Numbered from the stretch's first letter, positions 14,598 through 40,538 are shown. The stretch is 64,000 bases of DNA from an uncultured SAR86 cluster bacterium (GCA_902560315.1 CACELG010000002.1:64442-128441); one strand, 5' to 3'. Notes: a model not told the origin generated them from the letters alone. Made by a program: numbers and translations.

Positions 14598-15371
14598 ATG
14601 AAAGTAATAGTGGTAAGTGGTGGGTTTGATCCATTGCATTCAGGCCATATTTCTTATTTTAAAGATGCAAGAAGTCATGGAGATAAGCTAATCGTTGCTT
14701 TAAACAGTGATGACTGGCTCGAAAAGAAGAAAGGCAAATTCTTTATGCCTTTTTCAGAAAGAAAGCTAATCATTGAAAATTTAAAGTTTATAGACGAAGT
14801 GATTGATTTTGAAGATGATGAAATTGGTAGTTGCATTAATGCTCTTGAAAAAGTTAAAGATTTACATGTAAATGATGAGATATATTTTGCAAATGGTGGT
14901 GATAGGGATAAAGAAAATATTCCTGAAATGTCAGTTGATGGCATTAATTTTTTATTCAAGATAGGAGGCGATGAGAAAAAAAACTCCTCCTCATCCATTT
15001 TAAAAAAATGGCAAAATTATCATGAAGAAAGAATTTGGGGTGCTTTTTACAACTTATTTGAATCTGATGATGTAAAAGTAAAAGAGTTGATTGTTGATCC
15101 AGGCAAAGGCATGAGTTTTCAAAAACATTTTAAAAGGTCAGAAATATCAATAGTAAGCAAAGGATCATGCATTATAAATTACAGCAAAGATAATCCAGAC
15201 GATAGAAAAGATATACAATTAAACAAATTTGATTATTATTTCGTTCCTGTTGGTGAGTGGCATCAAATCACAAATCCATTTGATAAACCATGCCATCTTA
15301 TTGAAATTCAATATGGTGAGTCTTGTGTTGAAGAAGATATTGAAAGAATAGATTATTACGATCCAAAATAA
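14598..15371 (+). CDS. Nucleotidyltransferase fused to mannose-6-phosphate isomerase-type cupin
   Basis: A 257-residue two-domain protein. Residues 1-~140 form a cytidylyltransferase-like fold: VVSGGFDPLHSGHISYF has the HxGH nucleotide-binding motif, followed by ALNSDDWL and later SSSSILKKW, as in HldE/RfaE C-terminal and glycerol-3-phosphate cytidylyltransferases. From about 142, EERIWGAFYNLFE through GEWHQITNPFDKPCHLIEIQYG matches the cupin end of ManC/mannose-6-phosphate isomerases. The fusion suggests activation of a sugar or polyol phosphate linked to isomerisation, but the substrate is unknown. A TATAAT hexamer at 14585-14590 could be its -10 box. Confidence 0.75.
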   Translation: MKVIVVSGGFDPLHSGHISYFKDARSHGDKLIVALNSDDWLEKKKGKFFMPFSERKLIIENLKFIDEVIDFEDDEIGSCINALEKVKDLHVNDEIYFANGGDRDKENIPEMSVDGINFLFKIGGDEKKNSSSSILKKWQNYHEERIWGAFYNLFESDDVKVKELIVDPGKGMSFQKHFKRSEISIVSKGSCIINYSKDNPDDRKDIQLNKFDYYFVPVGEWHQITNPFDKPCHLIEIQYGESCVEEDIERIDYYDPK

Positions 15372-17748: not shown

Positions 17749-17822
17749 GGCTGGATGGCAGAGTGGTTATGCAGCGGCCTGCAAAGCCGTTTACGCCGGT
17801 TCGATTCCGGCTTCAGCCTCCA
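17749..17822 (+). tRNA. tRNA-Cys (GCA)
   Basis: A 74-nt cloverleaf with acceptor stem GGCTGGA pairing with TTCAGCC, T arm GCCGG-TTCGATT-CCGGC, and anticodon loop CTGCAAA giving anticodon GCA. The discriminator is T73 as expected for cysteine, and CCA is encoded. In E. coli the order is pgsA-glyW-cysT-leuZ; here no tRNA-Gly fits in the 45 bp after pgsA. Confidence 0.95.
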
Positions 17823-17828
17823 TATATT

Positions 17829-18680
17829 ATGAAAATAGGAATTATTGGTTTGGGTTTTGTTGGTAAGGCTTTAAGAAATGGTCTTAAGGAAAATGTTGAG
17901 AGCATAGAGATAGACCCAAAACTAAATACAAACATTGAAGACTTAAAAAATCATAAACCTGAACTTGTTTTTATATGCGTTCCGACTCCTATGAACGATG
18001 ATGGAAGCCAAAATATAGATATAGTCAACGATGTCATTAATGAAATTAATCAATTTGATACAAATCTATTAATTGTTCTTAAAAGCACTGTATTACCAAA
18101 ATATGTAAAAGAAATTTCTAAAAAAAGCAAAAACTTAGTTATAAATCCAGAATTCTTAAGAGAGAAATCAGCTAATGAAGACTTTATTAATTCTGAAATA
18201 ATTATATTTGGAGGCCTAGATGATAATTGCAAAAAATTATCATACTTTTATAAAAATCATACTAATTGTAAATGCAAAGAACATACTATTACTGATCGTG
18301 AATCCGCCTCGCTTATTAAATATACAATTAATTCATTTCTTGCTTTAAAAGTTACCTTTTTTAACGAGATAAAACTTATTTTTGATAATTTAAATTCAAA
18401 AGATGATTGGCTAAATTTTATAAACGCATTATCCAAAGATAAAAGAATAGGTGACTCACACATGAATGTACCGGGGCCAGATGGAAGATATGGATTCGGT
18501 GGGCCTTGCTTGCCCAAAGATGTTAACGCACTTATCGAATACTCAAAAGAAATTGGAAAGGAATTAAGCTTATTAAATAAAGCCAATAGTATTAATAATA
18601 ATATTAGAGCAGAGTATAATGAATTATCTGCTCGAGAAATAGAGCAAAACATTAAATATAAGATTGATAAAGAGGAGTAA
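17829..18680 (+). CDS. Short UDP-glucose 6-dehydrogenase family protein
   Basis: About 283 residues from the ATG at 17829; upstream in-frame codons run into the tRNA and are not coding. The N-terminal Rossmann motif IGIIGLGFVGKAL, VPTPMNDDG, NPEFLREKSA and the catalytic cysteine in GFGGPCLPKDVNALI identify a UDP-glucose/UDP-sugar dehydrogenase. Classical members have about 390-430 residues with a third, UDP-binding domain, which is missing here. Either the protein is a natural short form or it has lost function. It is wedged between tRNA-Cys and tRNA-Leu, which normally sit side by side. Confidence 0.8.
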   Translation: MKIGIIGLGFVGKALRNGLKENVESIEIDPKLNTNIEDLKNHKPELVFICVPTPMNDDGSQNIDIVNDVINEINQFDTNLLIVLKSTVLPKYVKEISKKSKNLVINPEFLREKSANEDFINSEIIIFGGLDDNCKKLSYFYKNHTNCKCKEHTITDRESASLIKYTINSFLALKVTFFNEIKLIFDNLNSKDDWLNFINALSKDKRIGDSHMNVPGPDGRYGFGGPCLPKDVNALIEYSKEIGKELSLLNKANSINNNIRAEYNELSAREIEQNIKYKIDKEE

Positions 18681-18693
18681 TTTAAAAAAATAT

Positions 18694-18780
18694 GCCCGAG
18701 TGGTGGAATTGGTAGACACAAGGGACTTAAAATCCCTCGATAGAAATATCGTGCCGGTTCAAGTCCGGCCTCGGGTACCA
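18694..18780 (+). tRNA. tRNA-Leu (TAA)
   Basis: An 87-nt class II tRNA with acceptor GCCCGAG/CTCGGGT, a long variable arm (CTCGATAGAAATATCGTG region) and anticodon loop CTTAAAA, anticodon TAA. The T arm is GCCGG-TTCAAGT-CCGGC, the discriminator is A and CCA is encoded. It is similar to E. coli leuZ, which also follows pgsA and tRNA-Cys. It marks the left edge of the polysaccharide locus. Confidence 0.95.
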
Positions 18781-18801
18781 AATTTAAGCTAGATTAATAT
18801 C

Positions 18802-19278
18802 ATGAAAGTTTGGATGATTGCCACCTATAAAAATAATGAGTTAAAAAGACTTAAAGACAATCTTCAAAATCAAAATCTTGAATATTACCATCCTAAAATA
18901 AACACCAAAAAATACAATTCAACTCCAAAAGAAGAGCCCTTATTTCCTGGCTATATTTTTATTTATTCCTGCATTAAAAATTATTCAAAAATTAAATACA
19001 CAAGAGGAATTTCTAAAGTTATACGATTCAATAATAATATTGCAACACTTGAAGATGATGAGATTTTTGAATTAAAAAAAATAGAATCTGAGTCTTTTTT
19101 AAAACCCATAATTCAAAAAATATTTGTTGGACAAGAGGCTACAATTTCTGAAGGGCCCTTGAAGGGCTCATTTATTTCAATCGCCTCATTGCCAAATAAA
19201 GATAGGGTAAATATTTTCATTCATATTTTGGGAAAAAAAAGAAAGGTGACAGCATCTTTAAATGAAATAAAGCTCTAA
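18802..19278 (+). CDS. rfaH: RfaH/NusG-family transcription antitermination protein
   Basis: A 158-residue NusG paralogue; E. coli RfaH has 162. An NGN domain covers about 1-100 (KVWMIATYKNNELKRLKDNL, then PLFPGYIFIY), and the C-terminal KOW-type domain about 105-158 (VGQEATISEGPLKGSFISIA). RfaH loads on RNA polymerase paused at ops sites and allows transcription of long envelope polysaccharide operons. It lies just ahead of such an operon, and an ops-like motif is present at 19403, which supports the specialised RfaH role rather than general NusG. Confidence 0.85.
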   Translation: MKVWMIATYKNNELKRLKDNLQNQNLEYYHPKINTKKYNSTPKEEPLFPGYIFIYSCIKNYSKIKYTRGISKVIRFNNNIATLEDDEIFELKKIESESFLKPIIQKIFVGQEATISEGPLKGSFISIASLPNKDRVNIFIHILGKKRKVTASLNEIKL

Positions 19279-22628: not shown

Positions 22629-23825
22629 ATGAATGAAAAAGAAGTATTAAATTTAATTGGGCGAACAAATGAACTTTTTGAGGCAGATATAAATATGCAT
22701 GATAAAGAGCTTAAAAAAATAGTTTCTTTATCTTCTTTTCTTGTTATCGGTGGAGCTGGATCAATCGGACAAGCAGTAGTTAAAGAAATTTTTAAGCGCA
22801 ACCCAAAAAAAATTCACGTTGTCGATATTAATGAAAATAATTTAACTGAACTTGTTAGAGATATCAGAAGTTCACTTGGTTACATTGATGGTGACTTTAA
22901 TACTTTTGCACTAGATATTGGCTCAATTGAATATGACGCATTTATTAAATCAGATGGTCACTATGATTATGTATTAAATTTATCTGCATTAAAACATGTT
23001 AGAAGTGAAGAGGATCCCTATACTTTAATGAGAATGATAGACATCAATATTTTTAATACAGATAAAACAATTAAACAATCTATTGAAAATTCTACAAAAA
23101 AATACTTTTGTGTGAGTACTGACAAGGCTGCTAATCCAGTTAACATGATGGGAGCTAGCAAAAGAATAATGGAGATGTTTTTGATGCAAAGATCAAAAGA
23201 AATCAATATATCTACTGCAAGATTTGCGAATGTAGCTTTTAGTGATGGATCATTGCTTCATAGCTTTAATCAAAGACTAAGTAAGATGCAACCAATTGCT
23301 GCACCTAGCGATATAAAACGTTACTTTGTAACACCAAAAGAAAGTGGGGAATTATGTTTAATGAGTTGCATTTTTGGTAATAACAGAGACATATTCTTTC
23401 CAAAATTAAGCGAATCTCTTCATTTAACAACTTTTTCTGAAATAGCTGTTAAATATTTAAAAATGAAAGGATTTGAGGCCCATATATGCTCTTCAGAAGA
23501 AGAAGCAAGAGATTTAGTGAAAACTCTTCCGGATCAGGGTATGTGGCCCTGTCTATTCACTGAAAGTGACACAACTGGAGAAAAAGATTTTGAAGAGTTT
23601 TTTACCAAGAACGAAAAACTTGATACGAGTAAGTTTAGTAGCTTAGGCATAATAAAAAATGAAGTAAGCTATAATGATGATCAATTAAATAGCTTTGAGG
23701 ACTCCATCAATAGATTAAAATACTGCGGAGTTTGGAATAAAGAAGATATTGTTGGTGAGTTTTTTAAGATAATTCCTAATTTTAATTATTGTGATAAAGG
23801 AAAGTATCTTGGTGAGAAAATGTGA
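22629..23825 (+). CDS. legB: NDP-GlcNAc 4,6-dehydratase (LegB-like)
   Basis: A 398-residue short-chain dehydrogenase-type enzyme of the CapD/PglF/LegB group. The NAD motif VIGGAGSIGQAV is at 39-50, and STDKAANPVNMMGASKRIME near 158-177 shows the active site with Met in place of the usual Tyr, as in CapD-type dehydratases. It is longer than PseB (about 330) because of an extra C-terminal region from about 285. Directly followed by a LegC-type aminotransferase, it should make the 4-keto-6-deoxy intermediate for legionaminic acid. The nucleotide (GDP or UDP) is inferred only from the cluster. Confidence 0.75.
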   Translation: MNEKEVLNLIGRTNELFEADINMHDKELKKIVSLSSFLVIGGAGSIGQAVVKEIFKRNPKKIHVVDINENNLTELVRDIRSSLGYIDGDFNTFALDIGSIEYDAFIKSDGHYDYVLNLSALKHVRSEEDPYTLMRMIDINIFNTDKTIKQSIENSTKKYFCVSTDKAANPVNMMGASKRIMEMFLMQRSKEINISTARFANVAFSDGSLLHSFNQRLSKMQPIAAPSDIKRYFVTPKESGELCLMSCIFGNNRDIFFPKLSESLHLTTFSEIAVKYLKMKGFEAHICSSEEEARDLVKTLPDQGMWPCLFTESDTTGEKDFEEFFTKNEKLDTSKFSSLGIIKNEVSYNDDQLNSFEDSINRLKYCGVWNKEDIVGEFFKIIPNFNYCDKGKYLGEKM

Positions 23826-24964
23826 TGTTTGAAGATATTATTGATTTTATTCAGAAAACATACAAAACAAAAAATCTTATACCTCTTCACGAACCAAAAT
23901 TTTTTGGTAATGAAAAAAAATACCTAAACGAATGTATTGATTCAACTTTTGTTTCATCGGTTGGAAAATATGTAGACATATTTGAAAAAAAAATAGCAGA
24001 ATATACGGGTGCAAAATATGCAGTTGCAACAAGTAATGGTACATCTGCTCTACATATAGCACTTTTATTAGCTAACGTAGAAGACGGTGATGAGGTTATT
24101 ACTCAACCATTAACCTTTGTAGCAACTTGCAATGCGATTAGGTATTGTGGCGGCCGGCCCATTTTTATTGATGTTGATAAGGACACCATGGGTCTCTCAC
24201 CGACTGCACTAAGATCTTTTTTAGCAAATAATACAACAATAAAAAATAAGAGATGCATAAATAATTCAACAGGCAAAGTAATAAAAGCCTGCATGCCTAT
24301 GCATACTTATGGACATCCTTGCAAAATAGATGAAATAAAAGAAATTTGCATTCAATACTCCTTAATTTTAATTGAAGATGCTGCTGAGAGTATTGGCAGT
24401 AAGTTTAAACAAAAGCACACTGGAACTTTTGGGCAAATAGGTATTATGAGTTTCAATGGAAATAAGATTATTACAGCAGGTGGTGGAGGATGTATTATTA
24501 CTGATAATCATACCTTAGCAAAAAAAGCTAAACATCTCACCACAACTGCTAAAGTTCCACATAAGTGGAACTTTAATCATGATATGGTGGGATATAATTA
24601 TCGTATGCCAAACCTTAATGCTGCTTTGGTTGTAGCTCAGCTTGAGAATATAGATAAATTTATTTCCAGCAAACGGCAGTTAAGCGAGGATTATAAAGCT
24701 TTCTTTAGCAATATAGATTGTACTTTTTTTGAAGAACCAATTAATAGTAAATCAAATTACTGGTTAAACACTATTGTTTTTAAAAATAAAAAACAAAGAG
24801 ATTTATTTTTAAAGATAACTAATGATAATGGCATAATGACAAGGCCTATTTGGCAATTAATGAATGAGCTTGAGATGTTTAAGTCTTATGAATGCACAAG
24901 TATAGATAATGCTAAATATCTAGAAGAAAGATCCGTAAATATTCCAAGTAGCCCAACATTTTAG
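23822..24964 (+). CDS. legC: LegC-family PLP aminotransferase
   Basis: A 380-residue DegT/DnrJ/EryC1-type sugar aminotransferase. It shows ATSNGTSALHIALLLANV near 63-80, the Asp of IEDAAESIGS near 182-191, and the PLP lysine in SFNGNKIITAGGGG near 211-224. It transfers an amino group to C4 of the 4-keto sugar made by the preceding enzyme. The start overlaps legB by 4 bp. The C-terminus ends abruptly after NIPSSPTF, slightly short; a gap with junk-like sequence follows, so a small 3' rearrangement is possible. Confidence 0.82.
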   Translation: MMFEDIIDFIQKTYKTKNLIPLHEPKFFGNEKKYLNECIDSTFVSSVGKYVDIFEKKIAEYTGAKYAVATSNGTSALHIALLLANVEDGDEVITQPLTFVATCNAIRYCGGRPIFIDVDKDTMGLSPTALRSFLANNTTIKNKRCINNSTGKVIKACMPMHTYGHPCKIDEIKEICIQYSLILIEDAAESIGSKFKQKHTGTFGQIGIMSFNGNKIITAGGGGCIITDNHTLAKKAKHLTTTAKVPHKWNFNHDMVGYNYRMPNLNAALVVAQLENIDKFISSKRQLSEDYKAFFSNIDCTFFEEPINSKSNYWLNTIVFKNKKQRDLFLKITNDNGIMTRPIWQLMNELEMFKSYECTSIDNAKYLEERSVNIPSSPTF

Positions 24965-25078
24965 GAGATACAAAAATTATGAAAAATGTTTCATTGCAAG
25001 TGATCAATTATTGATTTTGATATAAATGAGCAAAGAATTGTAAATGTTCCTTGCAGGGTAAGATTTTTTGGCAAAAAA

Positions 25079-26026
25079 ATGAATATACTTTTAACAAACT
25101 CTGGAAGACGGACATACATGGTCAAATATTTATTTGAACTAAAAGATTCTTATAATAATTCAATAGAAATATTTTTGTCTGATACATCTGAAGATGTTCC
25201 AAGTTTTTGGGTTGATCAAAGATCTAATAATATCCTTACACCAAGGGTTGATAGAGATGAAAACCAATATATAAAAATTTTATTAGAAAAGTGTAAGAAA
25301 AATAAGATCGATATATTGATACCATTAATGGATTACGAGCTTCACCTACTTGCTAAAAATGTAAATAAGTTTATTGATATTGGTACTTTTGTTGTTGTAT
25401 CAGATTTTAATACAGTCTCAAATTGTTTAAATAAAGATAAATGCTATATTTTTTGTAATGAGCACAATATAGCAGTTCCAAAAACATGGAATTCAAAGAA
25501 TCAAATCGAATCAAGTAAAAGCATAGTTGTAAAAAAAATTAATGGAAGTGGAAGTCTAGATATGCACCTATTTAACTCAAAAGAAGAAATACCATCATAT
25601 TTTGATAATACTTTTTTATATCAAGAATATATTAGTGGCCAAGAATATGGGATGGATGTTCTTAATGATTTTGATGGTAATTTCATTCACTGCTGTGTTA
25701 AAAAAAAGATATCTATGAGATCAGGAGAAACTGATAAGGCTGAAGTGGTTTATGATCTTAGGTTTAACCAATTAGCTCAAAAGATAAGTGCTGTATTTAA
25801 ACATGTTGGAAATCTTGATATTGATTTTATAATTGATAATTCTGACGATATTTATTTTATTGACTTCAATCCAAGATTTGGAGGGGGGTACCCATATACT
25901 CATTTGGCTGGATTTGATTATCTAAAAGCACTCCATAAACTCAGTATTGGAGAAAAGGTTTCGATGGACTTTAAAGGAAAAGAAATTATTGGAATGAAGG
26001 GTATAGAAGTATATACATTAGGATAG
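25079..26026 (+). CDS. ATP-grasp ligase of unknown substrate
   Basis: A 315-residue carboxylate-amine/thiol ligase-type ATP-grasp protein. N-terminal pre-ATP-grasp fold (NILLTNSGRRTYMVKYL), then the ATP-binding lysines and GSGS loop near 157-163, LYQEYISGQEYGMDVL near 181-196, and metal-binding residues in YFIDFNPRFGGGYPYTH near 260-276. Proteins of this kind activate a carboxylate as acyl phosphate and join it to an amine. Its location inside a legionaminic acid cluster suggests attaching an acid to an amino sugar, but that is inference. Confidence 0.75.
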   Translation: MNILLTNSGRRTYMVKYLFELKDSYNNSIEIFLSDTSEDVPSFWVDQRSNNILTPRVDRDENQYIKILLEKCKKNKIDILIPLMDYELHLLAKNVNKFIDIGTFVVVSDFNTVSNCLNKDKCYIFCNEHNIAVPKTWNSKNQIESSKSIVVKKINGSGSLDMHLFNSKEEIPSYFDNTFLYQEYISGQEYGMDVLNDFDGNFIHCCVKKKISMRSGETDKAEVVYDLRFNQLAQKISAVFKHVGNLDIDFIIDNSDDIYFIDFNPRFGGGYPYTHLAGFDYLKALHKLSIGEKVSMDFKGKEIIGMKGIEVYTLG

Positions 26027-26047
26027 TCAAATTAGTTTATATAAAAA

Positions 26048-26989
26048 ATGAATAAGTTATTAATAACAGTTCCGATGAAGACTAATGATATAGATAGGAT
26101 TATTAATCTTGGTTATGAAGTGAGCGTATGCTTAGAAAATGATTTATCTTTTGAAAAATCTATTCATAATTTTAAAGACATAGATTGTATGATATGCCAC
26201 AACCCGTTTAAAAAAGTACTTTTTGATGATTTTGAAAATTTAAAATGGATTCAGCTTACAAGTTCTGGTTTTGAACATTTACCTTTAAATAATATTGTGA
26301 ATAGAGATATTTTAATAACTAATAATAGTGGTGCTTTTAGCGTTGCAGTTGCTGAATGGATTGTTATGAGAATTCTTGAATCTTTCAAGAATAGCTTCAA
26401 AATTTTTGAAAATCAGAAAAAAAAATTATGGAAAACTGATTACTCTGTAAGAGAATTATATGGGAGTTCAATTGGATTTATTGGCACAGGTAATGTTGCA
26501 AAAGAGACAGCAAAAAAACTAAGCACTTTTGGAGTTAAGATAATTGGCTTGAATAGATCTGGTCGCTCTGTTGACTATTTTGATAATACATATTCATTAT
26601 CAAATATTACTGATTTTATTAAATTATGTGATGTAGTTGTATTAGCTGCGCCACTGAATGATGATACTTTTCATATTATCAATGATGAATTTCTAAATAC
26701 TGCAAAAAAGGGGATAACATTAATTAACATTGCTCGTGGTAACTTGATAGATGAAATGGCACTTATAAAAGCTATCCATGAAAAGAAAATTATTTTTGCT
26801 GCTCTTGATGTTTTTGAAAATGAACCACTATCATCGGATAGTGAAATGTGGGATACAGATCAAATTATTATATCGCCTCATAATGCATGGATTTCAGAAG
26901 AGTCTAAGGATAGAAAATTTAGTATCGTATTTAGGAATTTGAAAAATTTTATCGAAAACAAACCTTTGGAAAATATTATTTTAAAGTAA
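26048..26989 (+). CDS. D-isomer-specific 2-hydroxyacid dehydrogenase
   Basis: A 313-residue NAD-dependent dehydrogenase. NAD motif IGFIGTGNVAKETAKKL near 138-154; catalytic Arg in NIARGNLIDEMAL near 226-238, Glu in DVFENEPL near 255-262, and His in SPHNAWISEE near 278-287. This is a complete active site. The family reduces 2-ketoacids to D-2-hydroxyacids or the reverse. With the flanking aminotransferase and ATP-grasp genes it could prepare a hydroxy acid or keto acid for decoration of the glycan. The substrate is not predictable. Confidence 0.8.
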   Translation: MNKLLITVPMKTNDIDRIINLGYEVSVCLENDLSFEKSIHNFKDIDCMICHNPFKKVLFDDFENLKWIQLTSSGFEHLPLNNIVNRDILITNNSGAFSVAVAEWIVMRILESFKNSFKIFENQKKKLWKTDYSVRELYGSSIGFIGTGNVAKETAKKLSTFGVKIIGLNRSGRSVDYFDNTYSLSNITDFIKLCDVVVLAAPLNDDTFHIINDEFLNTAKKGITLINIARGNLIDEMALIKAIHEKKIIFAALDVFENEPLSSDSEMWDTDQIIISPHNAWISEESKDRKFSIVFRNLKNFIENKPLENIILK

Positions 26990-27082
26990 TAGTTTAAATT
27001 TAAAAAAATACTTTATAAATTGTTCATTTTAAAGAGTTTTAGTAAAGGATTATAATTATTAAAAGCTATAAGGAGATAAAGA

Positions 27083-28258
27083 GTGATTATCAGACCTGAA
27101 ATTGGAGAGGATGTAACAATGGAGTTTGCTTCTGTTGCCAGGGAAATGAACAAAAAAAATATTGATATAATTTCATTTGGCTTAGGGGAGCCAGATTTCT
27201 CTACTCCTAAACATATAATAGACGCTTCAAAAAAAGCGCTCGATAAAGACCCCTATAGAAGATATTCAAATCCATTAGGACTATATGAGTTAAGAAAAGA
27301 AATATCTATAAGAGAAAAGAGAGTCAATAAAAATGAAATTAATCCTGAAAATATTATTGTAACACCAGGAGTAAAGCAGGCATTATTTCTAAGTTTGTTA
27401 AGCACCTTAGAACCCGAAGATGAAATAATTAATTTTTCACCATCATATGTTTGTTATATTCCAGATATTTATCTTGCTGAACCAAATGCTGTTATTAAAA
27501 ACATCAAACTAAAAAATGACTTCACCATAGACATAGATGAATTGAAAAATAATATTACAGATAAAACTAAGGTTATTTTAATTAATTCTCCTCACAATCC
27601 AACAGGTAAGATGATTAGTAAGATAGAAAGAGATGAGATAGCTAAAATAGCAATTGAAAAAAATATCTATATCATTTCAGATGAAATTTATGACTTGATG
27701 TGCTTTTCAGGTAAAGAACATTTTGGTTTTGGTTCAATAAATGAACTTAAGGATCTAATAATCACTGTTAATGGATTTAGTAAAGCTTATTCTATGACTG
27801 GATGGAGAATTGGTTATGCTATTGCACCAGCACATTTAATAAATACAATGCGAAAAATACAACTTCATACAAATACCAATACATGTGGTTTTATCCAAAT
27901 GGGTGCCATTGAAGCCTTAAGAGGAAACCATTCGCATTTAACTAAGTTTAATTCAGAACTTATTGAGAAAGTTAAAATTATGACTAAATACCTCAGTAAA
28001 GATGTTATGACATCACCAACAGAAGGAGGCTTTTTTTCTTTTTTGAATATCTCAAAGACTGGTTTAAGTTCAAATGCTTTCTCCGCTCAATTTATCAAGG
28101 AATGCAGAGTTGCCACCTCTCCTGGAATAGCTTTTGGCAAAGAATGGGATACTCATATTAGGGTTTCGTTAATTGAGAATGTAGAGCGTTTTCGTAAAGG
28201 CATAGTAAAATTAGCAAGTTTCATATCAAAGTATGAAAAAATTAACAAAAGGATATAA
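27083..28258 (+). CDS. Class I/II PLP aminotransferase
   Basis: A 391-residue fold type I aminotransferase (aspartate aminotransferase group). FGLGEPDFSTPKHI near 32-45 is the substrate region; NSPHNPTGK near 168-176 and SDEIYD near 199-204 bind PLP; the Schiff-base lysine lies in NGFSKAYSMTGWRIGYA near 229-245; the substrate carboxylate Arg is in HIRVSLIEN near 354-362. The GTG start is preceded by a clear AAGGAG at 27070-27075, and 93 bp of noncoding sequence with TATAAT at 27051-27056 may hold an internal promoter. Confidence 0.82.
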   Translation: MIIRPEIGEDVTMEFASVAREMNKKNIDIISFGLGEPDFSTPKHIIDASKKALDKDPYRRYSNPLGLYELRKEISIREKRVNKNEINPENIIVTPGVKQALFLSLLSTLEPEDEIINFSPSYVCYIPDIYLAEPNAVIKNIKLKNDFTIDIDELKNNITDKTKVILINSPHNPTGKMISKIERDEIAKIAIEKNIYIISDEIYDLMCFSGKEHFGFGSINELKDLIITVNGFSKAYSMTGWRIGYAIAPAHLINTMRKIQLHTNTNTCGFIQMGAIEALRGNHSHLTKFNSELIEKVKIMTKYLSKDVMTSPTEGGFFSFLNISKTGLSSNAFSAQFIKECRVATSPGIAFGKEWDTHIRVSLIENVERFRKGIVKLASFISKYEKINKRI

Positions 28259-28260
28259 AA

Positions 28261-28785
28261 ATGTTTGATGGAAATAGTATTTATTTAAGATTAATAGAAA
28301 AAGAAGATTGCGTTTATAGAACTAATTGGGTAAATGATGAAGAAATTCGAAAAACACTTATGTTTGATTGGCCTTTATCATTATCAGGAACAGAAAAATG
28401 GTTTGATATGCAAGATCTTGATCCAAAAAAAAGAAATTTTATGATTATATCTAAGGATTCAAATCTGCCAATTGGAATAACAGGGCTAATCGACATTGAT
28501 TTTAGACATTTAAGAGGGCAGTTTTATATGACAATTGGTGAAAAAGATTATTGGGGTAAACGTATTCCTGATGAATCTATACCTTTAATTTTAAATTATG
28601 GCTTTAATGAGCTTGGCTTAAATAGAATCTATCTATACACCTTAAATAATAATGAAAGAGCAAGAAAGGTTTATGAAAGAAATGGATTTACTAATGAAGG
28701 AACACTTAGAAAACATTATTTTTGTGTTGGGGAATATCAAGACTTAATGGTTATGAGTGTTTTAAAAGATGATTTTAAGATTTAA
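28261..28785 (+). CDS. GNAT acetyltransferase (PseH/LegH-like)
   Basis: A 174-residue GCN5-type N-acetyltransferase of the RimJ/PseH group. It opens IYLRLIEKEDC, and YMTIGEKDYWGKRIPDESIP near 90-109 leads into NELGLNRIYLYTLNNNERARKVYERNGF near 117-144, the acetyl-CoA-binding core. In a legionaminic pathway this step acetylates the C4 amino group of the dideoxy sugar. It lies 2 bp after the aminotransferase and 14 bp before the synthase gene. Confidence 0.75.
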   Translation: MFDGNSIYLRLIEKEDCVYRTNWVNDEEIRKTLMFDWPLSLSGTEKWFDMQDLDPKKRNFMIISKDSNLPIGITGLIDIDFRHLRGQFYMTIGEKDYWGKRIPDESIPLILNYGFNELGLNRIYLYTLNNNERARKVYERNGFTNEGTLRKHYFCVGEYQDLMVMSVLKDDFKI

Positions 28786-28799
28786 CAAAAAAAACTGTA

Positions 28800-29813
28800 A
28801 TGCCAAAAACATATATTATTGCTGAAATTGGGCCGAATCATAACGGAAGTTATGATATGGCCCTAGAATTAATTGAAAAATTAGCTGGCATTGGTGTTGA
28901 TGCGGTTAAATTTCAATTGGGTGATGCAAGAAATTCTTTATCGCTAGATTCTTTTAAAGCTGATTATCAAAAAAAAAATGATAATGCAGAAGATATATTT
29001 GAAGCAACAAAAAAAAGACAGTTATCTCACGAATCCCATAAGAAGCTTGCAATTAAGTGCAAAGAGTTGAATGTTGATTATCTTTGTACAGCATTTGATA
29101 TAGATAGTTTGATATTTTTAGATCAAGAGATAGATGTTCCTAAATTTAAAATTGCTTCTGGAGAGATTTTCTCAATTGACTTGCTTGAATACATGGTTAT
29201 GAAGAATAAGCCTTTGATATTATCAACTGGAATGGCTTCATTTGAAGAAATAGAGAGGGTGTATGAAATACTTTCTTCAAAATCAAAAAATAAAGATATA
29301 ACGATTCTTCATTGTGTAACAAGCTATCCTGCATCATTGGAATCGATCAATCTAAATGTGATGCTCGAACTTAAAGAAAAATTTAAAACAAAAATAGGGT
29401 ATTCAGATCATACTTTAGGAAATATTGCATCTCTTTCTGCCGTTGCTATGGGAGCCTCCATAATTGAAAAGCATGTGACACTTGATAAATCATTACCAGG
29501 ACCTGATCACAAAGCTTCTGCAACTATTAGTGAATTCAAGAATTTAGTGAAAAATATCCGTGAAATTGAAATCATTAAAGGCAGTTATGAAAAAATTTTC
29601 TCAAAAACTGAAGTAGATATATCAAAGGTTGCCAGAAAAAGCATTGTTGCTAAGCACTTAATAAAAAAAGGCACAATTATAAAAATAGAGGATATATGCT
29701 TCAAACGTCCTGGAATTGGATTTTTACCAATAGACAAGCATATGGTTTTAGGTAAAACAGCCATTACAGATATTGAGGAAAATAGGGTTATAAGAGAAGA
29801 GCAAATTTCATGA
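28800..29813 (+). CDS. legI: NeuB-family nonulosonate synthase (LegI-like)
   Basis: A 337-residue synthase that condenses PEP with a 6-carbon amino sugar to give a 9-carbon nonulosonic acid. The NeuB barrel opens with IIAEIGPNHNGSYDMALELI, and includes KIASGEIFSIDLL, LSTGMASFEEIE, IGYSDHTLGN near 200-209 and EKHVTLDK near 223-230. A C-terminal SAF/antifreeze-like domain (about 275-337) completes it. Neighbouring LegB/LegC-type genes favour legionaminic acid over sialic acid as product. Confidence 0.85.
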   Translation: MPKTYIIAEIGPNHNGSYDMALELIEKLAGIGVDAVKFQLGDARNSLSLDSFKADYQKKNDNAEDIFEATKKRQLSHESHKKLAIKCKELNVDYLCTAFDIDSLIFLDQEIDVPKFKIASGEIFSIDLLEYMVMKNKPLILSTGMASFEEIERVYEILSSKSKNKDITILHCVTSYPASLESINLNVMLELKEKFKTKIGYSDHTLGNIASLSAVAMGASIIEKHVTLDKSLPGPDHKASATISEFKNLVKNIREIEIIKGSYEKIFSKTEVDISKVARKSIVAKHLIKKGTIIKIEDICFKRPGIGFLPIDKHMVLGKTAITDIEENRVIREEQIS

Positions 29814-30925
29814 AAATTGCCTTCATTACTGGAGCCAGATCTGATTATGGACCATTTAGAAGCACATTAAAGGCTATTTCCCTAGATCAAAATTTTAATT
29901 TAGATATTTTAGTTCATGGAATTCATTTCTTAGATTCCTTTGGAAATTCTATTAATGAAATAAAAAGAGATAGCTTTGGGAAGATTGTAAAATTAGAAAC
30001 CATCACTTCACAGGAGGAAAAATCAATTGAAATGATAGACACTTTTAAGGTGTTGAATAATTTTTTAAATAGTAGTTCATATAATTTAGTAGTAATTGTA
30101 GGTGATAGGCTTGAAGCATATGCAGCAGCACTTGCAGCCCATTTTGCAAAGATACCAATATTGCACTCGGGAGGAGGCCATATTACAAATGGCGCTATTG
30201 ATAATATTTACAGATATAATATTACTAATCTATCTAAATATCATCTGACTACTTCAAGAAAAGCCTTCGATACGCTGAGAAATTTACCAAGCATAAATTT
30301 TAATAATGTCCACTTTACTGGCTCACCCACAGTAGATGCAATCAAAAGCTATCTCATTTCTCCAATACATATTGAAAAATATGTTCCAAATCTCTCTAAA
30401 AAAAAATATATTCTTATTACTTTTCATCCTGTAACTTTAATTAATGAGCCTGTTGTAGAAATTATGAAAGCAGTAGTGGAGTATTTAAGCTCGAAAAACA
30501 TTCATATGTTGATCACATATCCAAATAATGATGAAAAAAGTAATGAAATTACGGCATACATAGATAGTATTAAAAAATACAAAAATATTCATGTAATTCC
30601 TCATCTTGGTTCTAATGCATATTTTAGTGCAATTTATTGCTCTGAATTTGTTATTGGTAATTCTAGCAGTGGTTCTATGGAAGTACCTTATTTTAAAAAA
30701 CATGTATTAAATATAGGGACTCGTCAAGAGGGAAGAGCTTTAGATAAATCTGTTACAAATGTTGATGCAGATAGTGCTGAAGTGATAAAAGTTTTAAGTT
30801 CAATATTAAATAAAGATGTTTCATTGTTAAATAATGAAGAGCTATATGGAGATGGGTCAGCAATAGAAAAAACTTTAAAAATTTTAAAAAAAATTTCTGC
30901 TGAGGGGTTAAAGAATCATGATTGA
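29810..30925 (+). CDS. legG: Hydrolysing NDP-GlcNAc 2-epimerase (NeuC/LegG-like)
   Basis: A 371-residue GT-B-fold hydrolysing 2-epimerase. It starts IAFITGARSDYGPF, and shows VVIVGDRLEAYAAALAAHFAK near 96-116, HSGGGHITNGAIDN near 121-134, HFTGSPTVDAIK near 169-180 and VIGNSSSGSMEVPYF near 282-296. These are hallmarks of NeuC/LegG rather than the unrelated PseG, which argues for legionaminic or sialic acid and against pseudaminic acid. It overlaps legI by 4 bp. Confidence 0.85.
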   Translation: MKIAFITGARSDYGPFRSTLKAISLDQNFNLDILVHGIHFLDSFGNSINEIKRDSFGKIVKLETITSQEEKSIEMIDTFKVLNNFLNSSSYNLVVIVGDRLEAYAAALAAHFAKIPILHSGGGHITNGAIDNIYRYNITNLSKYHLTTSRKAFDTLRNLPSINFNNVHFTGSPTVDAIKSYLISPIHIEKYVPNLSKKKYILITFHPVTLINEPVVEIMKAVVEYLSSKNIHMLITYPNNDEKSNEITAYIDSIKKYKNIHVIPHLGSNAYFSAIYCSEFVIGNSSSGSMEVPYFKKHVLNIGTRQEGRALDKSVTNVDADSAEVIKVLSSILNKDVSLLNNEELYGDGSAIEKTLKILKKISAEGLKNHD

Positions 30926-31964
30926 TTTAAAAAAATTGGAAATATTTGAAGATACAACAATTAGAGAAGCTATAAAGGCTATTGATAGAGGCAATTTGCA
31001 GTTGGCCATAGTTGTTGACAAAAAGAGAAGATTATTAGGTACTCTAACTGATGGTGATATTAGAAGAGGTATTTTAAGTGGCCTTGATACTGAAAGTAAT
31101 ATTAAAGGTATATACTTTAGATCCCCATTGGTGGCTACATTAGCAGAATCAAAAAAAGATATTTTACAAAAGGCACTTGATAGAAAAATACATCAAGTTC
31201 CTATAATTGATGAGAATCAACATGTAATTGATATCAGACAAATAGAAGAGCTTATTAAACCAAGGGAAAAAAGCAATAAGGTAGTATTGATGGTAGGAGG
31301 ATTGGGAACTAGGTTAAAACCTTTAACAGAAAAGATACCCAAACCATTACTTAAAGTTGGTAGCAAAACAATACTAGAGACTATCCTATCAAGGTTCCTC
31401 GAGTATGGGTATAAAAATATTTTAATGTGTGTTAATTATAAATCAGATATGATTCAGGAATTTTTTGGTGACGGCAGTAAATTTGGTGTAAGCATAGAGT
31501 ATATCTTAGAGGATAAGAGGATGGGAACTGCAGGAGCACTTAGTTTGCTAAAAGATAAAATATCTGAACCATTTTTTGTTATGAATGGAGATTTGCTAAC
31601 CGATATTAATTTTGAAAATATGCATAATTTTTTTGTTTCCGATGAAGCTGATGCTCTTATGTGCGTTAGAGAGTATGAATTCCAAATTCCTTATGGAGTT
31701 GTTAATACTGATAATATTCGAATTAAATCAATTCAAGAAAAGCCTTCTCATAAATTTTTTGTAAACGCAGGTATCTATATGCTCAGTCCTAAGGTATTAA
31801 AATACGTCCCAAAAAATGAGTTTTATAATATGACCACCCTTTTTGAAACGCTAATAGAAAAAAATAGAAAAGTAATTTCATTTCCTCATGAGGGTTATTG
31901 GATGGATATTGGTAGGTTTGAAGAATATGAGAAAGCCAATACCGAATTTAATAATATATTTTAA
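30918..31964 (+). CDS. CBS-domain sugar-1-phosphate nucleotidyltransferase (PtmE-like)
   Basis: A 348-residue protein. A tandem CBS pair (about 1-115; GTLTDGDIRRGIL and QVPIIDENQHVID) precedes a nucleotidyltransferase domain starting VVLMVGGLGTRLKPLTEKIPK near 120-140 with the metal-binding Asp in VMNGDLLTDI. In Campylobacter the PtmE protein of this architecture makes GDP-glucosamine for the legionaminic pathway; that is the likely role here. It overlaps the previous gene by 8 bp and the next by 1 bp. Confidence 0.78.
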   Translation: MIDLKKLEIFEDTTIREAIKAIDRGNLQLAIVVDKKRRLLGTLTDGDIRRGILSGLDTESNIKGIYFRSPLVATLAESKKDILQKALDRKIHQVPIIDENQHVIDIRQIEELIKPREKSNKVVLMVGGLGTRLKPLTEKIPKPLLKVGSKTILETILSRFLEYGYKNILMCVNYKSDMIQEFFGDGSKFGVSIEYILEDKRMGTAGALSLLKDKISEPFFVMNGDLLTDINFENMHNFFVSDEADALMCVREYEFQIPYGVVNTDNIRIKSIQEKPSHKFFVNAGIYMLSPKVLKYVPKNEFYNMTTLFETLIEKNRKVISFPHEGYWMDIGRFEEYEKANTEFNNIF

Positions 31965-32662
31965 TGCCTCTTAATAAAAAAATTTTAGCTGTTATTTTGG
32001 CAAGAGGTGGAAGTAAAAGGCTTCCAAGAAAGAATGTAATACCTTTATGCAAAAAACCGCTTATTTCATGGACTATTGAAGCGGCATTAAAATCAAAATA
32101 CATTGATAAACTTGTTGTCTCAAGTGATGATGATGAGATTCTAAACATTTCAAATAACTTAAAAGTAACCAGCATTAAAAGGCCTAGTGAACTAGCTACT
32201 GATCAGTCTACTTCTTATGATGCACTATTACATGTACTAAAAAATTTTACAGGTTATGAATATATAGTTCTGCTTCAGCCCACAAGCCCGTTAAGAGATG
32301 AAAGTCATATTAATCAAGCAATAGAGCTTGTAAATAAAAAAAATGCAGAAGCAGTCGTAAGTGTTTGCCAGGAAAGACATAATCTAACAAAGTCATTTTC
32401 ATTAGACAAAAGTTTGCTAATACATAATTTAAATAAGAAAGATGATGAATTAAATAAAAATTCTAACATGAAAAATTTTTATAAGTTAAATGGCGCAATA
32501 TATATATGCAAAGTTGAACAATTTTTGAAAGAAAAAAGCTTCCTAATAAAAAATAAAACTTTCGCATATATTATGAGCGAAGAATGCTCGATAGATATTG
32601 ATGAGCAAACAGATTTTGAACTTGCTAGTTTATATATGTCAAAAAAACTTTGCGTTAATTAA
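31964..32662 (+). CDS. legF: CMP-legionaminate/sialate cytidylyltransferase
   Basis: A 232-residue CMP-nonulosonate synthetase. LAVILARGGSKRLPRKN near 5-21 is the CTP-binding signature; SSDDDEIL, RPSELATDQSTS and LLQPTSPLRDESHI near 99-112 are also typical of NeuA/LegF/PseF. It activates the nonulosonic acid as CMP-sugar, the last cytosolic step. It starts on the stop of the preceding gene (TAATG). Confidence 0.87.
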   Translation: MPLNKKILAVILARGGSKRLPRKNVIPLCKKPLISWTIEAALKSKYIDKLVVSSDDDEILNISNNLKVTSIKRPSELATDQSTSYDALLHVLKNFTGYEYIVLLQPTSPLRDESHINQAIELVNKKNAEAVVSVCQERHNLTKSFSLDKSLLIHNLNKKDDELNKNSNMKNFYKLNGAIYICKVEQFLKEKSFLIKNKTFAYIMSEECSIDIDEQTDFELASLYMSKKLCVN

Positions 32663-39263: not shown

Positions 39264-40538
39264 ATGCAATACACTGATTCGTCAATAGCAATAGTTGGAC
39301 TGGGATATGTTGGGTTACCACTGGCAGTTGAATTTGGTAGCAAGCGAAAAGTTATCGGTTTTGATATAAATGAAGATAGGATTAAAGATTTAAAGAAAGG
39401 TATAGACAATACTCTTGAAACCACCAATGAAGAATTAAAAGATGCGACTCATTTAAGCTTCACAAACTATCTTGAGGATTTAAAAGACTGTAAGATTTTT
39501 ATAATAACTGTCCCAACCCCAATCGATGAAGATAAAAAACCTGATTTATCTCCATTAGAAAATGCTAGCAAAGCAATTGGCTCTATTCTAAAAAAAGAAG
39601 ATATAGTTATTTATGAATCAACTGTTTTTCCTGGAGCAACCGAGGAGATATGTGTTCCTATTCTTGAAGCCAAATCTGGTTTATCCTTCAATGAAGAATT
39701 CTTCTGCGGATATTCTCCAGAACGCATTAATCCTGGAGATAAAGAGCATCGTATTTCAACGGTTAAAAAAGTTACCTCAGGATCAAATCCTGAGATTGCA
39801 ACAAAAGTTGATGAGTTATATCAAGAGATCATTACTGAGGGTACTCATAAGGCAAGTAGTATAAAAGTTGCTGAGGCTGCTAAGGTAATTGAGAATACTC
39901 AAAGAGATGTAAACATAGCTCTAATAAATGAACTTTCACTTATTTTTAATAAATTAAATATTGATACTGAATCAGTTCTAGAAGCAGCCGGTACGAAATG
40001 GAACTTTCTTCCATTTAGGCCTGGTTTGGTGGGTGGACATTGTATTGGTGTCGATCCTTATTACCTTACCCATAAAGCACTAGAAGTTGGTTATAACCCT
40101 GAGATGATTCTTGCAGGTCGAAGGATAAACGATAATATGGGGTTTTTTGTTGCAGATCAAATATTAAAGCTGATGAATGAAAAAGGCATCGATGTAGAAG
40201 GCGCAAATATATTGATAATGGGCTTAGCTTTTAAAGAAAATTGTCCTGATATTAGAAATACAAGAGTAGTTGATCTTATAGAGCAGTTCGATGGTTTTAA
40301 TTGTTCAACAGAGGTATATGATCCTTGGGTTGATAAAGATGCTGCTATGGATGAATATAAGATCAAGTTGATTGAAGAACCTATGGAAGGTAAATATGAA
40401 GCAATAATTTTAGCAGTTGCACATGATGTTTTTAAAAATTTATCATTAGAACAAATAAAGACTTTTGGAAAAGAAAATCATGTAATTTATGATATTAAAT
40501 ATTTATTAGATAATGAAGAGGTTGACGGCAGACTATAA
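39264..40538 (+). CDS. tviB: UDP-N-acetylhexosamine 6-dehydrogenase (TviB/WbpO-like)
   Basis: A 424-residue nucleotide sugar dehydrogenase with all three domains. The NAD motif is [15 protein letters not shown] near 10-24; [13 protein letters not shown] near 82-94; the catalytic cysteine is in [18 protein letters not shown] near 253-270; the C-terminal UDP-binding domain has [17 protein letters not shown] near 320-336. The VDPYYL form is typical of TviB/WbpO/WbpA enzymes oxidising UDP-GlcNAc or UDP-GalNAc, distinct from the short UDP-glucose dehydrogenase at 17829. Confidence 0.87.

Follow-up and report, generated by a model that had tools for sequence, protein, structure and literature searches.

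The legionaminic acid cluster in the window, by which we mean the whole 64,000-nucleotide stretch of SAR86 cluster DNA analyzed here, contains three intact genes, encoding an ATP-grasp ligase, a D-2-hydroxyacid dehydrogenase and a class I aminotransferase, which lie in series on the same strand between legC and the GNAT/NeuB/NeuC block. On balance, we favor the interpretation that this trio is a module dedicated to making an N-acyl group and attaching it to a variant form of legionaminic acid, with the adjoining GNAT gene probably forming a fourth member. A more specific version, in which the three enzymes would make a D-2-hydroxy acid and install it on N7 of legionaminic acid, is put forward as a tentative proposal; both the resulting nonulosonate variant and the route supplying its acid would then be previously undescribed. 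Legionaminic acid is a bacterial sugar related to sialic acid. The cassette provides a testable starting point, at the sequence level, for asking how the N-acyl groups of nonulosonic acids are altered in bacteria; these acids are surface sugars that are seen by phages and immune lectins.

Gene content of the locus

The genome that holds the window measures 1.08 Mb at 90% completeness, and the window forms part of its contig 2. A run of genes on one strand encodes Wzz, an ABC transporter, LegB, LegC, the ATP-grasp ligase, the dehydrogenase, the aminotransferase, GNAT, NeuB, NeuC, PtmE, a CMP-transferase and glycosyltransferases (Table 1). The joint presence of LegC, NeuB, NeuC, PtmE and the CMP-transferase, in the order found in a sister locus apart from one swapped block, places the run among legionaminic acid clusters; the models TIGR04181 and TIGR03568 score over their cut-offs, while NeuB (368 vs. 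a cut-off of 400, which marks it as a divergent member) and the CMP-transferase fall under theirs. Our analysis confirmed the coordinates, reading frames and families that the first-pass annotation had given for the three genes, with the flanking legC and NeuC genes identified by the same two models, as well as its statement that the catalytic residues are kept, since the expected motifs are present in all three proteins.

Table 1. Features of the legionaminic acid cluster surrounding the ATP-grasp, dehydrogenase and aminotransferase genes (positions in the window).
Feature	Coordinates	Strand	Evidence or remarks
legB-type 4,6-dehydratase	22629..23825	+	PF02719; 79% vs. sister locus L034 (tblastn)
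legC, DegT aminotransferase, yielding a 4-amino sugar	23822..24964	+	TIGR04181 556 bits (cut-off 420); 72% vs. L034
Gap of 114 bp	24965..25078	+	ATP-grasp reading frame already open over 25 codons; weak indication of a recombination scar with a decayed legC 3' end
ATP-grasp ligase, proposed N-acyl ligase acting on an amino sugar	25079..26026	+	PF21360 (PylC-like N domain) and PF02655 (ATP-grasp_3); tree; model; fold
D-2-hydroxyacid dehydrogenase (2-oxo acid reductase type)	26048..26989	+	PF00389 (2-Hacid_dh), PF02826 (2-Hacid_dh_C)
Gap of 93 bp with AAGGAG ribosome binding site	26990..27082	+	Promoter-like match at chance level
Class I/II aminotransferase (aspartate/aromatic type)	27083..28258	+	PF00155 (Aminotran_1_2); NF041091 318 bits, below cut-off; 1dju/1gd9
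GNAT acetyltransferase, SpeG/PseH-like	28261..28785	+	PF13302
NeuB/LegI-type synthase, divergent	28800..29813	+	PF03102 and SAF; 43% vs. sister locus
NeuC/LegG-type hydrolyzing 2-epimerase, divergent	29810..30925	+	TIGR03568 301 bits, over cut-off; 31% vs. sister locus
PtmE-type CBS and nucleotidyltransferase	30918..31964	+	Family match; sister-locus comparison
CMP-nonulosonate cytidylyltransferase (PseF/LegF-like)	31964..32662	+	PF02348; TIGR03584 below cut-off

The two gaps have the lengths reported earlier, but the first is not plainly noncoding, because the ATP-grasp frame (open frame 340) is already open 25 codons before its ATG. These codons resemble the LegC C-terminus: in a fair test, a score as good was reached by 14 of 1000 shuffles when the comparison was with the final 60 LegC residues and by 54 of 1000 when it was with the complete protein, compared to 0 of 500 when the frame and stop were picked by hand. 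The resemblance is only suggestive of a decayed legC 3' end, or recombination scar, that the gap may hold. The aminotransferase gene does have its own ribosome binding site, AAGGAG, immediately upstream of a GTG start at 27083. The promoter suggested for this gene (27028-27056) does not count as evidence, since sigma-70-like sites occur at chance level (36 found vs. 40 +/- 6 in shuffles) and show no enrichment.

Elsewhere in the window, genes for tRNA-Cys, tRNA-Leu and a NusG/RfaH-like protein (17749-19278) precede the Wzz/surface-glycan cluster, forming a tRNA-flanked start of the variable locus, and a cytidylyltransferase-like domain is fused to a mannose-6-phosphate isomerase-type cupin at 14598-15371.

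Block exchange relative to a sister locus

The nearest sister locus, found in a genome of the same genus (L034 in G122), shares the ABC transporter (70% identity), legB and legC with the window. After legC, it continues with neuD, NeuB, NeuC, hisF-like, hisH-like and PtmG-like genes, followed by PtmE (55%) and the CMP-transferase (49%); neuD was named by TIGR03570, and the hisF, hisH and PtmG names were read from translations. In the same slot, the window has ATP-grasp-dehydrogenase-aminotransferase-GNAT-NeuB-NeuC in place of neuD-NeuB-NeuC-hisF-hisH-PtmG-like. NeuB and NeuC have to work on a substrate that bears the N4-acyl group, and their replacement along with the cassette would therefore fit a change of acyl group at a step before NeuC.

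The ATP-grasp protein and its relatives

The ATP-grasp protein carries the motifs of its family, and residues including K119, K152, E189, G216, N264 and R266 are invariant across 23 homologues. Structural modeling, proposed in the first-pass annotation as a check, yielded an AlphaFold2 model (pLDDT 89.8, pTM 0.88) with a carboxylate-amine ligase/carboxylase fold, matching 2pn1 (TM 0.82) and then biotin carboxylases, the L-amino acid ligase RizA and PylC; a profile search returned CPS, L-amino acid ligase, VanA and PylC. The modeled fold fits a carboxylate-amine ligase without naming its substrate. By its domains (PF21360 and PF02655 over cut-off, full fold), the protein is of the PRK12767 (carbamoyl phosphate synthase-like) type, and with a best score of 220 bits vs. 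the NCBIfam equivalog cut-off of 316, sequence comparison makes it a distant PRK12767 relative and not one of the named equivalogs.

Relatives of the protein come from Bacteroidota, plasmids and a few Pseudomonadota, and fall into two groups in trees, whose labels were set from gene neighborhoods and not from the tree itself. The window protein, on a long branch with 32-36% identity to the other members, forms one clade with nine sampled relatives (support 100/97, and 100/99 in a second tree), apart from a second clade that adjoins HAD phosphatase genes. In the window clade, a DegT aminotransferase lies near seven of the nine members and most members are near a GNAT, formyltransferase or PLP enzyme, with NeuD also among the neighbors. 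The gene orders are DegT-GNAT-PLP-ATP-grasp on E. coli plasmids, PLP-GNAT-ATP-grasp-DegT in Sphingobium, DegT-formyltransferase-PLP-ATP-grasp in L084, and DegT-GNAT-ATP-grasp in L091 and L092. The HAD-linked clade, which is possibly PglB2-like, usually lies near PglC-type sugar transferases and once in a pseudaminic-type flagellar cluster; the window protein falls outside it, and no HAD gene is among the annotated genes around it. The window protein belongs to a subfamily that occurs in surface-sugar loci, mostly with DegT aminotransferases. The split of the two clades by partner genes (HAD phosphatase vs. PLP enzyme plus acyl cap) may be of use in predicting which acid is attached at many polysaccharide loci.

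Several of the sampled loci merit separate mention. A Capnocytophaga locus (L002:6319-11032) holds two ATP-grasp paralogues, one per clade. An Acetoanaerobium cluster of the flagellin/Maf/PseB/PseI type (L032:4299-16602) combines an ATP-grasp and HAD pair with methyltransferase-like ORFs, suggesting N-acylated pseudaminic-type sugars. At L090:8239-12649, a PglC-type transferase, a fold-III PLP decarboxylase-like protein, an NAD-dependent epimerase-like protein, an ATP-grasp and a DegT protein occur together; this ATP-grasp, with its fold-III PLP neighbor, lies outside both core clades and is present in one of 93 genomes of its genus.

The putative supply enzymes and the GNAT

The dehydrogenase shows the motifs GTGNVA and, after the NAD-binding fold, NRSGR, as well as the R (IARGN), E (FENEP) and H (SPHNAW) motifs, and the aminotransferase has the Schiff-base lysine (FSKAY) and the carboxylate arginine (HIRVS). 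By structure and sequence, the nearest enzymes to the dehydrogenase are of the phenylpyruvate, glyoxylate and phosphoglycerate types, and this nearness to reductase-type enzymes, together with NRSGR, would favor NADPH and reduction. A lone gene in Acetoanaerobium (L031) is 42% identical. Two further frames in the genome, of 549 and 394 aa, match the 2-hydroxyacid dehydrogenase family strongly, and given such SerA-type enzymes elsewhere, the window dehydrogenase is additional; no second match to the aminotransferase was found in the genome.

The two enzymes have a 2-oxo acid in common and can operate from amino acid to D-hydroxy acid or in reverse. By a small margin, we prefer the former direction, because common amino acids should be available as standing cell pools and D-hydroxy acids should not. 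With regard to a known complete pathway formed by the three genes, the phosphoserine pathway (SerA plus SerC) was considered and rejected: the PGDH model scores 154 bits vs. 454, the aminotransferase is of class I/II and not a class V SerC, and the 549-aa frame with its 2-hydroxyacid dehydrogenase domain is separate.

Among 72,556 plasmid records, the best match to the window GNAT is the GNAT of the Sphingobium ATP-grasp locus (37% over 172 aa, 119 bits), closely followed by other SpeG-like GNATs, of which the next (103 bits) has no sugar genes around it; the GNAT of the E. coli ATP-grasp locus could not be aligned with the window protein. Since the best plasmid match lies in an ATP-grasp locus, we prefer to view the module as a four-gene unit to which the GNAT probably belongs. 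The GNAT may either cap an amino acid once this is attached or act as an ordinary N4-acetyltransferase.

Searches for the trio in other genomes

The expectation that the trio would recur beside leg genes was not borne out: it was absent from 35 other LegC loci (15 from the order and 20 from the phylum; NeuB was matched in 27 of these) searched by tblastn, which could miss distant ATP-grasp proteins. Nor did the three genes occur together in any other sampled locus, leg-linked or otherwise. This counts against a make-and-attach module to the extent that there is no comparative proof of joint action. At E <= 1e-30, 203 genomes from the order and 399 from the phylum gave no match to the ATP-grasp protein outside its own genome. 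With a profile at 1e-45, three more were obtained, and an ATP-grasp scan of genome contigs gave four loci, of which two were similar enough for use. In the genus to which G384 belongs, only one genome out of 93 sampled matched the profile of the window clade, and viral contigs searched with all three proteins contained no relative. One GC-rich LegC locus (L054:5860-9666) has, judging from translations, LmbE-type deacetylase-like and formyltransferase-like ORFs between NeuC and NeuB, a candidate route to N-formyl legionaminic acid.

Proposed pathway and alternatives

In the pathway that we propose, LegC would make a nucleotide-activated 4-amino-4,6-dideoxy sugar, and the aminotransferase and dehydrogenase would convert an amino acid via its 2-oxo acid to a D-2-hydroxy acid, for example serine via hydroxypyruvate to D-glycerate. 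The ATP-grasp enzyme would activate such a small carboxylic acid with ATP and form an amide with the LegC-made 4-amine, corresponding to N7 of the nonulosonate. Ligation would take place before NeuC and NeuB, which would turn the N-acylated sugar into a nonulosonic acid, followed by activation by the cytidylyltransferase. The earlier suggestion that an acid is made and attached to a sugar amino group gains from the ligase-type fold, the sugar-locus subfamily and the extra dehydrogenase, whereas its three-gene unit gives way to one of probably four. Weighing against the proposal, the ATP-grasp protein has a long branch and an identity of only 32-36% to its clade, the GNAT could acetylate N4 as LegH/PseH does, leaving the ligase no free amine, and the clade partners (PLP enzyme, GNAT and formyltransferase) are more in keeping with an acid that carries an amine than with a hydroxy acid.

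The latter point leads to an alternative that has its core in common with our preferred explanation and differs in the acid. Here, the same ligase would receive an L-amino acid, supplied from a D-hydroxy acid via the 2-oxo acid or by the aminotransferase alone, and join it to the 4-amine; the GNAT would then N-acetylate the amino acid, giving a Leg5Ac7(N-acetyl-aminoacyl) sugar like the Leg5Ac7AcAla of Vibrio vulnificus, a reported nonulosonate (PMC7371886). The placement of the ligase in a PLP/GNAT/formyltransferase-linked clade and the homology of the window GNAT to its Sphingobium counterpart speak for an amino acid rather than a hydroxy acid. Common L-amino acids, however, need no dedicated supply genes, so that the dehydrogenase would be idle or reversed, and we hold this route to be possible rather than probable.

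We consider it unlikely that the GNAT is an ordinary N4-acetyltransferase and that the ATP-grasp enzyme decorates another position or polymer, such as a uronic acid carboxylate amidated with an amine made by the aminotransferase. A UDP-sugar dehydrogenase is encoded at 39264-40538, and amidated glucuronic acid is mentioned for the Campylobacter jejuni HS:2 capsule in PMC11800379, but the DegT amino-sugar genes near seven of nine clade members and the position of the trio directly after legC, inside the leg gene run, argue otherwise. Very improbable, finally, is a stray amino-acid or hydroxy-acid metabolic cassette carried into a recombining surface-glycan locus: the best relatives of the dehydrogenase and aminotransferase do lie outside sugar loci (the lone L031 gene and plasmid matches) and there is the possible scar before the ATP-grasp gene, but relatives of both the ATP-grasp and the GNAT occur in sugar loci, the genes have all stayed intact within a genome of 1.1 Mb, and further dehydrogenases of the same family are found elsewhere in it.

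Comparison with known systems

The first-pass annotation had seen here a candidate for an undescribed sugar modification route, a view that does not hold for the general idea, which has precedents in PglB2 (PMC11130364) and Leg5Ac7AcAla (PMC7371886). ATP-grasp enzymes are already known to N-acylate amino sugars; it is the supply pair inside a Leg cluster that was found in no other searched locus. Neisseria PglB2 is an ATP grasp/phosphoglycosyltransferase making GATDH (PMC11130364), with the role of its ATP-grasp domain called proposed (PMC6959607). It puts a glyceroyl group on the 4-amine of UDP-2-acetamido-4-amino-2,4,6-trideoxyglucose (PMC11130364, PMC6959607). LegC is expected to make this same 4-amino sugar. 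In this comparison, drawn from the literature, both systems have an ATP-grasp where an acetyltransferase would otherwise follow the 4,6-dehydratase and aminotransferase; unlike the window protein, PglB2 is part of a fusion with a phosphoglycosyltransferase and serves the synthesis of pilin glycans. We know of no aminotransferase or dehydrogenase supply genes for PglB2. A dehydrogenase that supplies the acid for an ATP-grasp ligase is seen in VanH-VanA, a D-lactate dehydrogenase and a D-Ala-D-Lac ligase that provide a depsipeptide for peptidoglycan; this is an analogy only, and VanH models match far below their cut-offs.

Shewanella oneidensis SfmE is an ATP-grasp protein from a flagellin-glycan operon with a NeuB-like gene, and its deletion changes flagellin mass (PMC3765264). 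It differs from the window protein as a 412-aa ATP-grasp_4 domain protein with other partner enzymes (PMC3765264). Vibrio vulnificus makes Leg5Ac7AcAla, and the nab clusters of V. vulnificus CMCP6 and Aliivibrio wodanis are associated with legionaminic acid bearing N-acetyl-alanyl at N7 (PMC7371886). Related Aliivibrio clusters are stated to include a further aminotransferase, and the text makes no mention of an ATP-grasp (PMC7371886).

The E. coli plasmid and Sphingobium loci (L033 and L070) share with the window an ATP-grasp of the same clade and DegT and GNAT neighbors. They differ in being other polysaccharide loci without NeuB/NeuC, and have a fold-II PLP enzyme (TIGR01275-like) where the window has the dehydrogenase and class I aminotransferase. 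For E. coli-type loci, the N-acetylseryl-Qui3N of E. coli O114 may serve as a precedent.
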